In this document: positions 25,431-33,448 of the stretch, piece by piece
How positions within the stretch are numbered: the first letter of the stretch is position 1
Layout: every line of letters starts with the position of its first letter
Assembly (NCBI GenBank): GCA_023665555.1
Contig: JAMPDR010000010.1
Span: forward strand, 1-43,403
Length of the DNA stretch: 43,403 bases
Source of the DNA: Ruminococcus sp.
Lineage (GTDB): Bacteria > Bacillota > Clostridia > Oscillospirales > Acutalibacteraceae
Direction: 5' to 3'
Program-made: the position numbers and the translations under genes
Notes under the pieces: model-generated
What the model was told of the DNA's origin: nothing
The model's input: only the letters and a program-made list of their open reading frames with translations
The model's database searches: none

Positions 25431-26540
25431 ATGAAACCATATGGACTTGTACTTGCCGGCGGAGGTGCAAAGGGTGCTTATCAAATCGGCGCATGGAAAG
25501 CAATGCGTGAAATCGGTGTTACATTTGAGGCGGTTTCAGGTGTGTCTATCGGTTCTATAAACGGCGCATTTATTGCTGCCGATGATTATAAAAATGCGGT
25601 TGAATTTTGGAATATAGCTTCAATTGACAAGGGTGTGAAAACCGAAGAGCCTTTGCCCGACCCTGAAAACTTGTTCAGCAGGAAGAATTGGGGTGTGCTT
25701 TTCAAAGAGTTCATGAAAAATAAAGGCTTTGATGCTTCGCCTGTTAATGATTTTCTGAAAGATTATATAGATGAAGAAAAGGTTAGGAAGAGCGGTATAC
25801 CTCTTGCAATTGTGACTGTACAAATGACACAGGGGGTCAATCCACTTGAACTTTTTATTGATGATATTCCGCAGGGTGCTCTTGTTGATTATCTGCTGGC
25901 ATCATCCAACATTCCTCTTGCAAACAACATTGGACCGGAGGGTGAACACTTCCTTGACGGCGGAATTTATGATAATATCCCTGTCAGTGTGCTTAAGAAA
26001 AACGGTTATAACCGACTTGTTGTTGTTGACATTTCAAGTATCAAAGGTGTCAATCACAGCCTTGACCTCATCAATTCGCAGATAGTTTACATAAGACCTT
26101 ACAACATTGACGATCTTGGTGCGGCATTTGATTTTGACAATGATATGATTGAAAAGCGAATAAAGATGGGTTACCTTGATGCGAAAAAGGCTTTTTCTTA
26201 TTTGCTTGGAAAAATCTATTACTTTGAGCCGAAAACCTATAGAAACATGGTAAGACGCTTTGGTGGTGAAACGGTTTCGCAGCTTGAAGATTTAGCTTAT
26301 GAAATGCAGATTCCGCGACTTGAAATATACACCGAAGAGGAATTTTTGTCGGCGGTGAAATTCGGCTATGAAGAATACAAGGCAAAGAAAGAGGCTGAAA
26401 AAGCCGAAGAGAAAAATAAAGGCAAAGAAAAAGATATCGAGAAAGAAGGCATTTATGCAACCATCATGAAGCTACTTTCAAGAAAGAAGGATGCAAGCGA
26501 TTTTGAAGATGCTATTGCGGTGCTGGAAGGACTTAATTAA
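25431..26540 (+). CDS. Patatin-like phospholipase (RssA/YchK type)
   Basis: The 369-residue protein begins LVLAGGGAKGAYQIGAWKAM (glycine-rich oxyanion loop), has the nucleophile elbow GVSIGSING with Ser39 and the catalytic Asp of FLDGGIYDN at Asp176, i.e. the Ser-Asp dyad of patatins. It should cleave acyl chains from membrane lipids. About 90 extra residues follow the catalytic domain, the last part a Lys/Glu-rich segment (KKEAEKAEEKNKGKEKDI) that may form a charged helix. ATG 25431 follows GAAAGGATATT. It is monocistronic or drives the small ORF at 26616. Confidence 0.9.
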   Translation: MKPYGLVLAGGGAKGAYQIGAWKAMREIGVTFEAVSGVSIGSINGAFIAADDYKNAVEFWNIASIDKGVKTEEPLPDPENLFSRKNWGVLFKEFMKNKGFDASPVNDFLKDYIDEEKVRKSGIPLAIVTVQMTQGVNPLELFIDDIPQGALVDYLLASSNIPLANNIGPEGEHFLDGGIYDNIPVSVLKKNGYNRLVVVDISSIKGVNHSLDLINSQIVYIRPYNIDDLGAAFDFDNDMIEKRIKMGYLDAKKAFSYLLGKIYYFEPKTYRNMVRRFGGETVSQLEDLAYEMQIPRLEIYTEEEFLSAVKFGYEEYKAKKEAEKAEEKNKGKEKDIEKEGIYATIMKLLSRKKDASDFEDAIAVLEGLN

Positions 26541-26612
26541 TGAGGAATAAGGAGTGAGGAACGGTTGCGTGGTGGCTTGTTGGCTGACAAAAGAAATAGT
26601 ACGCAAAGGGAA
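26540..26612 (+). repeat. Hairpin repeat, copy 11 (partial)
   Basis: ATGAGGAATAAGGAGTGAGG then GAACGGTTGCGTGGTGGCTTG...AGTACGCAAAGGG, i.e. left flank and first module only. It supplies the leader of the 63-residue ORF. Confidence 0.65.
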
Positions 26613-26615
26613 TTC

Positions 26616-26807
26616 ATGAAAATTACTAGACTTGTTGAAAAAACGGAAAATGATGGCTCTGCGGTAAATTTGGTGATAAAATTAGCGGTTGAAGGCGATA
26701 ATCCCAACTATAAAAACTCTATAATAACGGCAATCAAAGAAAGCGATAAACGGTTTGAACAAAGATTGAGAAATGATCAACCGGTTTATATAAGGTTGAC
26801 AAAATAG
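26616..26807 (+). CDS. Small 63-residue protein of unknown function
   Basis: ATG 26616 follows AAAGGGAATTC and gives MKITRLVEKTENDG...VYIRLTK, a hydrophilic protein with mixed alpha/beta character and no recognised motif. It lacks cysteines and membrane segments. The -35 box of the RNA promoter at 26796 lies in its last codons, so either the gene is real and tightly packed or the frame is accidental. Good ribosome-binding site and balanced composition favour a real gene, moderately. Confidence 0.55.
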   Translation: MKITRLVEKTENDGSAVNLVIKLAVEGDNPNYKNSIITAIKESDKRFEQRLRNDQPVYIRLTK

Positions 26808-26824
26808 TATAAAACGTTTATAAT
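26796..26824 (+). promoter_or_regulatory. Consensus promoter of the kissing-loop RNA
   Basis: Perfect TTGACA (26796-26801), 17-base spacer, perfect TATAAT (26819-26824). Confidence 0.93.
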
Positions 26825-26830
26825 GAACAT

Positions 26831-26990
26831 AGGATATGATTAGGCTATATGAGGTGGTAAAGTTCGTAGCGACCACACGCCGATGGTAACGACAGGAAGA
26901 AATTCCGAGAGATGCAGGAGAGTGCTACGCCTGCCATATAACCGATTTATCTGATAAACCGTCGTTGAGAAATCATCGGCGGTTTTTACA
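26831..26990 (+). ncRNA. Candidate structured RNA with a kissing-loop junction, about 160 nt
   Basis: From the expected transcription start, a closing stem P1 pairs GGCTATATG (26843-26851) with CATATAACC (26935-26943, one mismatch). Inside are three hairpins: P2 GTGGT (26854-26858)/ACCAC (26872-26876), P3 GGAA-GAAA-TTCC (26895-26906) and P4 GCAGG (26914-26918)/CCTGC (26930-26934). The P2 loop contains CGTAGC (26865-26870) and the P4 loop GCTACG (26924-26929), exact complements, so the two loops can kiss. A terminator follows at 26956. Such compact junctions with loop-loop contacts are typical of riboswitch aptamers (purine, lysine) but the conserved bases of these classes are not present, nor those of SRP, 6S or T-box RNAs. 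The next gene, a B12-binding radical SAM protein, begins 250 bases on, after a repeat. Confidence 0.7.
26956..26987 (+). terminator. Rho-independent terminator of the kissing-loop RNA
   Basis: AAACCGTCG (26956-26964) pairs with CGGCGGTTT (26977-26985, one wobble) and a T-run overlaps the descending arm. Confidence 0.88.
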
Positions 26991-27011
26991 TGAGTGAAAC
27001 CTAACCAATTG

Positions 27012-27225
27012 GGTCGAAGAAGTAACAACCGTAAGGTTTTAACCGCTAAGGCAGATAGCAGTTGTTTTATAGAAAGTTATTATAATAACTTTCTAACCGT
27101 TATATATAATTTGTTTTCGCGGACTAAAACGTAAAAGTTGAATATTTTTAATCCTTGACCTTACTTCTTCACTGTTCCTTATTACTTCTGCGTAGCAACT
27201 TCTCACTCCAAATTCCTAATTTTTT
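27012..27225 (+). repeat. Hairpin repeat, copy 12 (full, left flank altered)
   Basis: GAAGAAGTAACAACCGTAAG...AACCGCTAAG, a TTATTATAATAA core, TTTCGCGGAC, TAATCCTTGACC and a right flank TTCTTCACTGTTCC...AATTCCTAATT. It separates the RNA from the radical SAM gene. Confidence 0.7.
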
Positions 27226-27242
27226 CTGAAAGGAGATCCCAT

Positions 27243-28961
27243 ATGCAAAAATATACTGCACTAATCTGTTGTATCAACTCAAAATACATTCATTCATCTC
27301 TTGCACCGTGGTGTCTGCTTTCGGGAGTCAAAGAACTTTGTGATGATTTAGTCGATGCTCAGGTTGTTGAGGGAACGATAAATGAAAAAATGCAAGCCGT
27401 GGTTAAGCGTTTGCTTGATAAAAGACCCGACGCTGTCGGTTTTTGTTGCTATATCTGGAATATCCGTTATGTGCTTGAAACGGCAAATCAGATCAAAACA
27501 GCCATGCCGAATGTGAAAATTATTCTCGGAGGCCCTGAGGTGAGTTTTAATCAGCGTGATATTCTTGATGAAAACAGCTTTGTTGATTATGTGCTGGCAG
27601 GTGAGGGTGATTTTGCTTTTGCAAGGCTTGTTAAATCGCTCGCAGAAGGTGAACTACCGGAGAAGAATACAGTTTCAATGAGAGCAGAGGACAGACTTGT
27701 CATAGGTGATTATCAGACAGCACAGCACACCGTGTCGCCCTACTGCAAGGAATATTTCGATGCGCTCGGCGGCAGAATTGCTTATATTGAAAGCAGTCGC
27801 GGCTGCCCGTATCATTGTGCCTTCTGCCTTTCGGGAACGGACAGAACTGTTCGATTTTTTGAACTTGATCGTGTAAAAAAAGAGATGTTACTTTTGGCTC
27901 AGTCGGGTGCAAAAACAATTAAGTTTGTTGACCGCACTTTCAATTGCAGCAAAAAGCGTGCTTCTGAAATTCTGATTTTCATCAAAGAAAATTACGGCTC
28001 TGCGATTGCGGACGATGTCTGTTTCCACTTTGAAATTGCCGCTGATATTCTTGATGATGAACTGCTGTTGCTGATATCTTCAATGCCGTGCGGCTCGGTT
28101 CAGTTTGAGGCAGGAATACAAAGTTTCAACAGCAAAACGCTTGAAGCAATAAACCGAAAAACGAATCTCGACAGACTTTGCCGCAACATAAAAAAGCTGG
28201 TGTCGTTCGGCAATTGTCACATACATATTGACTTGATTGCAGGTTTGCCGCATGAAGATTTGGCATCATTCAAGCAGAGTTTCAACCTCGCGTTTGAACT
28301 TGGTGCAAACATGCTGCAACTCGGCTTTTTGAAAATCCTTTATGGTTCATGTATGGAAACAAATAAGGAAAATTTTCCGTGCGAATACAGCACCGAACCG
28401 CCATATGAAGTGATTTCAACACCATGGATAAGTAAGCAGGAACTTGACTTTTTGCATCTTTTTGAAGATGCGTTTGAGCGCGTATATAACAGCGGGCGTT
28501 TCCGCCGCACAGTGAAATATCTGCAAACCTGCACGAAGAAAACAGCCTTTGATATTTTCAGCGACTTCGCAATTTGTGTTAAAGATAAGAATATAGAAAG
28601 ACCACCGCTGGATCTATACACGAAATGGATTTATGAATTCTTCTCGTGCTATGAAAATGTTGATAAGATGGTACTGAGAGATATGATGATAACGGACAGA
28701 ATCGCAGGCAATTCATCGGGAATTATTCCAAAGTGCTTGCAGGTTAAGGATGAAAATCTGCGAAAGGTGAAACATGCACTTGCACTTAAATATCCGATGA
28801 AAAAAGGCACAAAAAGAAGTGCCGCAATTCTTTACAGCACCAACGAAGTTATTTTTTGCGACTATGGCGAAAAGGGCAGAGTCAGCGGTGAATATGAGTT
28901 TGCAATTGAAAAAATGGAAGATTTGACGAATTTTTTTGAAGAAAATCAGAAAAACGCTTGA
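27243..28961 (+). CDS. B12-binding-domain radical SAM protein with DUF4080-like C-terminus
   Basis: The 572-residue protein has an N-terminal cobalamin-binding-like Rossmann domain (about 1-140: CCINSKYIHSSLAPWCL, VGFCCYIWN, IILGGPEVS, VLAGEGDFAF), a radical SAM domain with the cluster cysteines in SSRGCPYHCAFC and a C-terminal region (about 380-570) of the DUF4080 kind. Related proteins (P-methylase/BchE-type) catalyse methyl transfers or ring chemistry; many such DUF4080 proteins lack a canonical DxHxxG motif for B12, and none is visible here, so cobalamin use is uncertain. The substrate is unknown. ATG 27243 follows AAAGGAGATCC. A MerR regulator follows, its promoter overlapping the stop codon. 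Confidence 0.9.
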   Translation: MQKYTALICCINSKYIHSSLAPWCLLSGVKELCDDLVDAQVVEGTINEKMQAVVKRLLDKRPDAVGFCCYIWNIRYVLETANQIKTAMPNVKIILGGPEVSFNQRDILDENSFVDYVLAGEGDFAFARLVKSLAEGELPEKNTVSMRAEDRLVIGDYQTAQHTVSPYCKEYFDALGGRIAYIESSRGCPYHCAFCLSGTDRTVRFFELDRVKKEMLLLAQSGAKTIKFVDRTFNCSKKRASEILIFIKENYGSAIADDVCFHFEIAADILDDELLLLISSMPCGSVQFEAGIQSFNSKTLEAINRKTNLDRLCRNIKKLVSFGNCHIHIDLIAGLPHEDLASFKQSFNLAFELGANMLQLGFLKILYGSCMETNKENFPCEYSTEPPYEVISTPWISKQELDFLHLFEDAFERVYNSGRFRRTVKYLQTCTKKTAFDIFSDFAICVKDKNIERPPLDLYTKWIYEFFSCYENVDKMVLRDMMITDRIAGNSSGIIPKCLQVKDENLRKVKHALALKYPMKKGTKRSAAILYSTNEVIFCDYGEKGRVSGEYEFAIEKMEDLTNFFEENQKNA

Positions 28962-30589: not shown

Positions 30590-33448
30590 TTAATAGTGTG
30601 CTACACCGCAAGAGCAAGTCTTGTTGATTCCGAACAACTTCCAGAACAGACGAACTATCTTGTAGATGAATCCTACAAAACCACCCTTGTGACAGATGTG
30701 GTCACAGGTGTCTGATGGGTCAGATGTTCCAATGTCAGAATCGCAAACATCGCATTTACCGTCGTTGTTGTTGTCGGTGTGTCCTGTGGCAGGGATTGGT
30801 TCAGTATATGTGTCACCGCAGACTGAGCAGGTGTAGACCTTTTCGCCCTCTTTTGTGCATTCGGGTTGAGTGGTGGTTGTTGCGTAGGTGTGGCCGAGTG
30901 CAGAATCGGTATCTTCCTTGAACCAATCATTGCAGATTGAGCAGAAAGCATATTTATAGCCATTTTCTGTACATGTTGCAGGAACATCTTTCCAATCTGA
31001 GCGAACCTCGTGAGTATGGAAACCGTCATAAGTTTCTTCAAGTTTAAAGGTATTACCTTTCGATGATGTTAAAGTATAATCATGCTCGTTTAAAACGTTT
31101 GTATCAACATTTTGAATATATGTTTCTCCAAGTTCCAGCGGAACTTCAGTAACTGTTTGTGTTGAAAGTAAATCAACCGATGTTCCGTATTCATTTACTT
31201 CAACAGTCATTTGTCCTTTACACGTAGCAATATATTCCAAACGATATGTATCATCAAACAGTATAAATGATTTTTCATGACCTTTGGCAGAAGCAACAAC
31301 ATTTTCATCATTTGAAACTGCAACATCATTTTCAACATATGCAACAAGTTCATCATTGCTGTTATATACATAAACATCAACAGGACATTTGATTTCAACT
31401 CCGGTTGCCGGAGTTATGATTGACTTCCAAACCAAGCCTGAAACAGAATTGTATTTTGATTGCTTAAGGATTTTATTCATAGTTTCGCCGAAAATAATAT
31501 CAACAGCTTTGTTTACATCGTTTCCCCATGCTGTATTATATGAACTTTTAATCTCATTGATTGCAATATCTGTTATAGTATCTGCAAAAGCTTTCACATT
31601 AGCACCATAAAGCGCTCCGCATGAGCCGCTTTTTTTCGGAACTTTGTTAGCCATATTTCCACCAATTATATCATAAGAAATATCGCCGTTAAAAGCATAA
31701 GAGTTTCCAGCTAATCCATAATTTTGGTAATCACAAGTGAACATTACTATAAGTTTACCATAGTTCTTTGTTTTCACTTCCACCGTTACAGAAACTGAAC
31801 CGCTTTTTACTCCAAGCAGGTTAGTGTCAATACTAAAAACTGCATCTATAATTTTCTTATCCAGTGATTTTTCAAAAACTGATTTGTCACTTGCAGAAAG
31901 TGCAACCATATAAAGCAACGAATCTCCGATTGCATTTCTTTGCTCCGGTGTCAATTGTTCATTCCAAAATGAACTTGTGTCGAGAGTAACGGTGTTTGTG
32001 AGTTTATTAAGTTCTTTAACAGCTTTATTAACATCTTTAGTTGACTCTTCCATATAGTCATTATTAATAAGTTGAATTGTTCCCATGGTGCTGCTTTCAA
32101 GACTTTGACCGTTAAGTTTATATTTCACTGTGCAGAAAATATTGATATCTTCTGTTTTTTCAGTCATCTTATGTTTGTCAGACATTTCCATGGTAAAATC
32201 AGCAACAGAAAACCACTCACCGATTTTCAAAACTGCATTTTTGGGTTTAATTGTTATACTTTTATTTGTCGAAAAAATCCACTTACTTGAATCTTTAAAT
32301 TTCAATTGGTCACTTGAAGAAGTAAGCGTTACGCTCTCTATTTCGCAATCAAAAGCATTGTTTCGTTTTATAAAATCTACCAAACTTCCGATAGCGTTGA
32401 TCTGTTTGCTTAAATGGGCTTTAGCACTAACTTTAACGCAGCCTTTTACGGCTTCATCTTTACCATCTTTATATTTTCCATCTTCATATATAATATTGTC
32501 AAGATCAAGTGACGGCTCTACATCTACTTTTAAATTGTCAACAACCTTTATATCAATAATCTCTGATTTTTCAATAACCGCAATAACAGGTCTGCCTATT
32601 ATCGCAGCCGCTTGTTCTTTGCTTAATAAGCCAGCTTTAATTTTATATTGCTCATTGTCAATGGTGACGTTATCAACAAAGGTATTTGTTCCATGCGTGA
32701 TGTTAATATTCGTAAAGGTTGTATATGCATTAAATATACCATTTATAATAAAGTTGCAATTAAAATGCTTATCTGCATTCATTAAAGGTTGGTTATAAAC
32801 AGGATAGTCTATCTTAATTTGATTCCATTGCTCTTCAGAACCGGGATAATAGACGTCTTTAAGGCTTGAACAACCATCAAATGCAAACCAAATTACACTT
32901 TTAACACTTGCAGGAATAAATACTGATTCAAGACTGGTACAATCTTTGAACATATCAGATGATATACTTTTTATGCGACTTGGAAGTATTGCATGCTTAA
33001 GGCCTGTACATTCATTAAATCCATACGCTTCAATTGTTACCACACTATCAGGTATGGATATACTTGTTAACGATTTACATCCACTAAAAGCCCATTCACC
33101 TATTGAGGTAACACTGTCTGGGATCTCTACACTGGATAAATTGCTGCAACTGCTAAAAGTACGAGAACCTATTCTTGTTATACCATCTCCAATGATTACA
33201 CTCTTGATATTATTATCTCCTCTAAACGGAGAAAAATCATCTGCAAATCCTACAGAACGACCATCTCGCATTGGACCTTCTCCGCTAAAAGTTAAAATAC
33301 CATCATCAAGAGTCCAATATACATTATCGCCCCATTTACCTGTTGAAGCCGCACTTGCAGTCAGTTCAATACCAGTCATTGGCATAGCACAAACCAACAT
33401 CACAACAGCCAAAACACATGATAAAATTTTCTTCGATGTTTTTTTCAT
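30590..33448 (-). CDS. BspA-like leucine-rich-repeat surface protein
   Basis: The 952-residue protein has a signal peptide (1-33, ILSCVLAVVMLVCAMPM core), then about five LRR_5 (BspA/TpLRR) repeats at 70-215, each like VTSIGEWAFSGCKSLTSISI. A long middle part (230-790) has no recognised domain. Near the C-terminus come CxxC repeat units (YAFCSICNDW, YTCSVCGDTY) seen in many clostridial surface proteins, ending in CDHICHKGGF, an amphipathic helix (IVRLFWKLFG) and CSCGVAHY. BspA-type proteins bind host matrix or other bacteria. The ribosome-binding site GGAGG lies about ten bases before ATG 33448. No LPXTG motif is present; the C-terminal motif may serve for attachment. Confidence 0.85.
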   Translation of the reverse strand: MKKTSKKILSCVLAVVMLVCAMPMTGIELTASAASTGKWGDNVYWTLDDGILTFSGEGPMRDGRSVGFADDFSPFRGDNNIKSVIIGDGITRIGSRTFSSCSNLSSVEIPDSVTSIGEWAFSGCKSLTSISIPDSVVTIEAYGFNECTGLKHAILPSRIKSISSDMFKDCTSLESVFIPASVKSVIWFAFDGCSSLKDVYYPGSEEQWNQIKIDYPVYNQPLMNADKHFNCNFIINGIFNAYTTFTNINITHGTNTFVDNVTIDNEQYKIKAGLLSKEQAAAIIGRPVIAVIEKSEIIDIKVVDNLKVDVEPSLDLDNIIYEDGKYKDGKDEAVKGCVKVSAKAHLSKQINAIGSLVDFIKRNNAFDCEIESVTLTSSSDQLKFKDSSKWIFSTNKSITIKPKNAVLKIGEWFSVADFTMEMSDKHKMTEKTEDINIFCTVKYKLNGQSLESSTMGTIQLINNDYMEESTKDVNKAVKELNKLTNTVTLDTSSFWNEQLTPEQRNAIGDSLLYMVALSASDKSVFEKSLDKKIIDAVFSIDTNLLGVKSGSVSVTVEVKTKNYGKLIVMFTCDYQNYGLAGNSYAFNGDISYDIIGGNMANKVPKKSGSCGALYGANVKAFADTITDIAINEIKSSYNTAWGNDVNKAVDIIFGETMNKILKQSKYNSVSGLVWKSIITPATGVEIKCPVDVYVYNSNDELVAYVENDVAVSNDENVVASAKGHEKSFILFDDTYRLEYIATCKGQMTVEVNEYGTSVDLLSTQTVTEVPLELGETYIQNVDTNVLNEHDYTLTSSKGNTFKLEETYDGFHTHEVRSDWKDVPATCTENGYKYAFCSICNDWFKEDTDSALGHTYATTTTQPECTKEGEKVYTCSVCGDTYTEPIPATGHTDNNNDGKCDVCDSDIGTSDPSDTCDHICHKGGFVGFIYKIVRLFWKLFGINKTCSCGVAHY

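Follow-up and report, generated by a model that had tools for sequence, protein, structure and literature searches.

The skipping-rope RNA (Rfam RF02924) probably acts as the antitoxin, or immunity RNA, to phage toxins of the PBECR2 type, and the copy described here would be an orphan of such a system. It lies on the forward strand of a 43,403-nucleotide (nt) stretch of Ruminococcus sp. DNA (GenBank assembly GCA_023665555.1, contig JAMPDR010000010.1, positions 1 to 43,403), hereafter referred to as the window. The RNA accompanies almost all examined copies of one family of predicted phage ribonuclease (RNase) toxins and is therefore probably their antidote. The RNA class was known already, as was very probably its pseudoknot; the nuclease partner is added here. 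The class was reportedly founded in a 2017 paper by Weinberg and others in Nucleic Acids Research (NAR). In the open-licence PubMed Central (PMC) papers that were searched, neither a function of the class nor a link to PBECR domains or to toxins was found.

Association with PBECR2 and PBECR3 domains

In most RNA-bearing phage contigs and in many genomes, the gene upstream of the RNA ends about 30 nt before it, and the end of the gene overlaps the promoter of the RNA. From 55 upstream open reading frames (ORFs) on the same strand, 34 proteins were picked as alike; four near-copy relatives were left out and the other 17 apparently do not belong to the family. PBECR2 was matched by 31 of the 34 chosen proteins (E-value of 0.001 or better) and PBECR3 by 25 of them. 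The domain either stands by itself or ends a phage capsid protein: among 25 viral proteins, nine match minor capsid protein 2 and seven match Phage_Mu_F. The best-ranked matches of the predicted model of the neighbor protein are toxins other than ToxN; a sequence-specific ribonuclease and toxins of contact-dependent inhibition are among the toxin folds nearest to this model. A sequence search of the PDB gave nothing meaningful, PADLOC returned a single stray weak match for four upstream proteins (SIR2, E 0.0026), and tblastn found no match for the domain of locus L045 in phage records nor for that of L078 in plasmids.

The association is also observed when the domain is taken as the starting point. 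In 398 genomes of the family, the PBECR2 profile (PF18810) matched 19 places in 18 genomes, 15 of which scored above the curated cut-off. Comparison of their coordinates with an RNA scan of the same sample showed that at 18 of the 19 places a skipping-rope RNA follows the gene on its own strand, at a distance of 40-244 nt; at the remaining one (G131) a divergent RNA copy was seen by eye. In 398 genomes of the phylum the profile matched 14 places, and Rfam's own model found the RNA beside 12 of them, one match falling just under the cut-off at 36.5 bits. Eleven of these RNAs are on the strand of the gene. The twelfth (L289, 1372-1450) is convergent to its PBECR2 gene and has a promoter and a terminator of its own by eye. 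At L295 and L297, where the domain match is weak, no RNA was found alongside.

Sets seeded with proteins gave a similar picture, the RNA being present at 24 of 25 phage loci and at the one phage record. Among 175 genome loci the best 80 were taken; 79 of them have the RNA and the other one is cut by the contig end. The seeds were five proteins that had first been met next to the RNA, so the sets are biased in its favor. Twelve of the 25 seeded phage contigs were already in the set collected by RNA pattern; the RNA is present in 12 of the 13 others. The sets overlap to some extent: one place of the phylum sample and at least four genome-contig loci had apparently been counted already in another set.

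Read from the RNA, the domain lies upstream on the same strand in 22 of 27 phage RNA loci and in 21 of 51 RNA copies of a genome survey, and never on the other strand. The phage pattern scan had returned 78 contigs, 51 of which were left out for want of a model match, and two survey copies (L020 and L021) are too close to a contig end for the upstream gene to be judged. The loss of the two partners is asymmetric. In three of the 21 survey copies the domain is broken and the RNA is present, and one clear toxin-only case was found (L146, 1860-2000), in which the PBECR2 domain of a phage gene is intact and the RNA is missing, lost at about its promoter.

PBECR3 offers a contrast: nine of 25 places (G131 not counted among the nine) are not beside the RNA; a local search of eight of the nine found none. 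Several of these RNA-less PBECR3 domains lie inside very long open frames; in L267, L268, L269 and L276 the frames measure 1167-3710 amino acids and no RNA is nearby.

Most loci hold a single RNA copy and some hold two or three. Two or three skipping-rope RNAs were seen close together at L031, L138, L139, L157, L158, L163, L167 and L211, and the two copies of L167 have different kissing sequences.

The predicted toxin remnant of the window

Upstream of the window RNA, the C-terminal remnant of a PBECR2-type nuclease was recognized at 26634..26792 on the forward strand (E 1.4e-12). The match was obtained with our own hidden Markov model (HMM), which was built from 48 domain sequences, including eight taken at survey or genus loci; by itself the remnant has no Pfam match. 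It covers profile positions 70-122 of 124, and the half that bears the conserved histidine is gone. The remnant sits in an ORF at 26565-26807 with an ATG at 26616, and blastp matched it to 26 other loci. A patatin gene upstream of it ends at 26540. The genome of the window carries three skipping-rope RNAs and no PBECR2 match. The two other copies have different kisses; one of them (C46) scores 27.3 bits, under the Rfam cut-off, and the other (C102) has no clear promoter by eye. A 22-nt direct repeat (77%) joins 26766-26787 in the remnant to 26965-26986 in the terminator, which may be chance.

Class and fold of the RNA

The window element is an intact member of the skipping-rope class. The initial annotation, made from the sequence alone, had described it as a promoter-to-terminator RNA of no known class; the Rfam covariance model nevertheless matches it at 26844..26942 on the forward strand with 46.4 bits (cut-off 36.7, E 5.4e-8), which gives a core of 99 nt comprising a closing stem P1, hairpin 1, a middle arm and hairpin 3. 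The promoter that had been called perfect is indeed so, TTGACA at 26796..26801 and TATAAT at 26819..26824 being separated by 17 nt with 0 of 12 mismatches in the promoter scan. A hairpin followed by a T-run, found by folding at 26956..26985, forms the intrinsic terminator. It was not flagged by our own simple terminator script, probably because the inner part of the hairpin exceeds the loop length that the script permits. The exactly complementary loops CGTAGC of hairpin 1 (26865..26870) and GCTACG of hairpin 3 (26924..26929), able to form a kiss of six base pairs, are present as had been proposed, as is the middle hairpin with its GAAA tetraloop (GGAA-GAAA-TTCC, located by eye at 26895-26906). 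All these elements are on the forward strand. In the computed fold of the window copy the closing stem reaches outward beyond the Rfam-matched core. This copy has the longer form of the middle arm, with an extra hairpin. The folding energy corresponds to a z-score of -1.90, nine of 200 shuffled sequences folding equally well; energy alone thus makes a modest case for the fold and no proof.

The fold is settled by the relatives. A covariance model of our own was built from 21 RNA copies and used to gather them; it scores the window copy, one of its building sequences, at 95.6 bits. Alignment A10 has 82 distinct rows, over which the whole structure pairs in 96.8% of cells, versus 83.5% in shuffled and 27.6-42.7% in slid alignments. 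A10 was fitted to a model that did not include the loop contact; on these rows 96.3% of the kissing helix is paired, with both-sided changes at five of its six pairs. The contact was also examined on 185 RNA rows, reduced to 153 unique RNAs. The longest Watson-Crick run between the two loops averages 5.02, versus 3.32 (standard deviation 0.07) when partners are shuffled. With the register fixed by a CG anchor in loop 1 (128 of the 153; the 25 without the anchor were left out), all six positions are paired in 112 RNAs, among which 16 different kiss sequences occur. The fold and the loop-loop contact of the initial annotation are thereby borne out. The legend of Fig. 3 of the Rfam 14 paper shows a pseudoknot pk_1 with covariation coloring for RF02924 (PMC7779021), so that the contact is very probably already known; we infer from this legend that pk_1 is the same loop pair.

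The promoter scan shows that skipping-rope RNAs have a promoter of their own, sited between the upstream gene and the RNA. A terminator-like element follows 92 of 156 relatives, versus 18 of 1560 shuffles. The class is also listed among phage RNAs in PMC8501573.

Beyond the terminator, and separate from the RNA, an interspersed repeat of about 90 nt occupies 27037-27127; a search with 26990-27245 gave 45 matches in the genome including itself, many with 75-85% identity over this stretch. A large protein with BspA-type leucine-rich repeats is encoded nearby on the reverse strand (30590-33448) and seems unrelated.

Proposed mechanism and alternative explanations

In the mechanism that we favor, toxicity would reside in the PBECR2/PBECR3 domain, which is predicted to be an RNase of the BECR fold. 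Phages often carry this domain as the C-terminal tail of MuF or minor capsid protein 2, both of them capsid proteins, and a toxin borne in this way could enter the cell along with the DNA. The RNA, which begins about 30 nt past the toxin stop codon with its own promoter overlapping the end of the gene and often with a terminator, would be produced in the lysogen independently of the toxin. Folded as a four-way junction locked by the kissing-loop contact, it would bind the RNase and neutralize it. In the window the toxin appears cut down to a C-terminal scrap, and the RNA with its intact promoter and terminator would be left as an orphan immunity RNA. The pairing is looser when read from the RNA, 28 of the 51 survey RNA copies having no such domain upstream in the stretch that was read; these many RNAs could have another role.

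Constant adjacency and co-divergence would look identical if the PBECR2 protein depended on the RNA as its cofactor, guide or scaffold, whether for activity, targeting or capsid packaging, and the capsid fusions described above allow a packaging role. However, RNAs persist beside broken domains or with none upstream, whereas PBECR2 genes without RNA are rare. An RNA that outlives its domain speaks against a cofactor, which should vanish together with the enzyme, and we hold this explanation to be unlikely. The usual position of the RNA, on the same strand and about 30 nt past the stop codon, would also suit an element that acts in cis on phage gene expression from the 3' portion of the messenger RNA (mRNA) for the toxin or capsid protein, i.e. 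a riboswitch, a stability element or a processed 3' untranslated region. Such an element is improbable in view of the promoter that separates gene and RNA, the many copies without such a gene upstream, the convergent RNA of L289 with its own promoter and terminator, and the lack of a conserved gene downstream. A small RNA that adjoins a toxin gene also recalls type I logic, in which the mRNA of the toxin is the target of an antisense RNA. Here, RNA and gene are on the same strand and do not overlap, and over 99 loci the longest complementary run averages 7.06 nt with the gene of the same locus and 7.19 nt with the genes of other loci, which leaves very little room for this possibility.

The initial annotation had considered an aptamer controlling the gene of a B12-binding radical SAM protein downstream, since an aptamer-like fold is followed by a terminator. 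This explanation is the least credible of all: the RNA belongs to a known class, the commonest family after it occurs at just 11 of 104 loci, one RNA is convergent to its neighbor, and the recurrent neighbor is upstream. The B12 radical SAM gene thus looks incidental. The alternative offered at the time, a trans-acting RNA, was judged right, so that fold, kiss, promoter-to-terminator unit and trans option stand, novelty of class does not, and riboswitch control is unsupported. A conserved immunity protein encoded after the RNA was also considered and rejected, the largest family being the one of 11 loci just mentioned and 98 of the 104 loci having more than 400 nt of sequence past the RNA. Three scanned members of this family are phage scaffold proteins; one protein of another downstream family has no Pfam match.

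One way in which an RNA antitoxin of this kind might act starts from its junction. Counted linker by linker, lengths of 2, 1, 4 and 0 nt are seen in 28 to 29 rows of an alignment of 29 and in 87 to 88 rows of one of 88; these 117 aligned copies were fitted to a model, which biases the count towards constancy. The cloverleaf of transfer RNA (tRNA) has the same linker pattern and its D and T loops touch, as do the loops of hairpins 1 and 3 here. Some toxins of the folds nearest to the model of the neighbor protein cut tRNA. We tentatively consider, as a possibility with more doubt than promise, that the skipping-rope RNA imitates the architecture of tRNA and works as a decoy. The idea draws on the linker counts, on tRNA anatomy and on the company of a predicted fold; no tRNA family is among the Rfam matches of the RNA up to E 10. 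If it were true, phages would inject an RNase while a tRNA mimic protects their lysogens, and the orphan copies retained by hosts would give immunity against the injected RNase.

Should the RNA be an antitoxin as proposed, BECR-fold RNases and toxins that form part of the virion would join those countered by RNA antitoxins, immunity would come from an RNA in a place where one would look for a protein, and the orphan copies that bacterial genomes carry would document phage toxins of the past. An RNA class for which the searched literature yielded no function gains a partner and a testable role, and RF02924 becomes a simple genome mark for finding further PBECR toxins.

Comparison with known systems

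The window RNA has the same arms as RF02924, scores above the gathering cut-off of the family and does not depart from it as an RNA, its middle arm being of the longer form. Among toxin-antitoxin systems, type III (ToxIN, CptIN, TenpIN; AvcID) is similar in setting a structured RNA beside a predicted-RNase protein. The antitoxin RNA of type III is made of tandem repeats; some skipping-rope loci hold two or three RNA copies in tandem, most a single one. In type III systems, as described in PMC5086642, the RNA precedes the toxin gene within one operon. In contrast, the skipping-rope RNA follows the toxin gene and has its own promoter, a layout at odds with the upstream RNA, single promoter and intervening terminator that define type III. 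Its unit is also distinct, with 80-100 nt and a four-way junction, and its protein neighbor, PBECR2 by sequence, frequently belongs to a capsid protein.

The account of AbiF in PMC12373285 offers another parallel, a phage-borne toxin being neutralized in cis and in trans by the adjacent RNA RCd22 (abiF motif, RF03085). Both systems thus combine a phage-borne protein toxin with an adjacent RNA carrying an Rfam motif. However, RNA and protein are other ones, and RCd22 precedes its gene with a terminator between them. On the protein side, PBECR domains were proposed to be RNases packaged in virions and injected (PMC5512222), and MuF toxins to be loaded into phage heads (PMC5576092). The available text of these two papers names no RNA partner for either; here, an RNA may replace the immunity protein.
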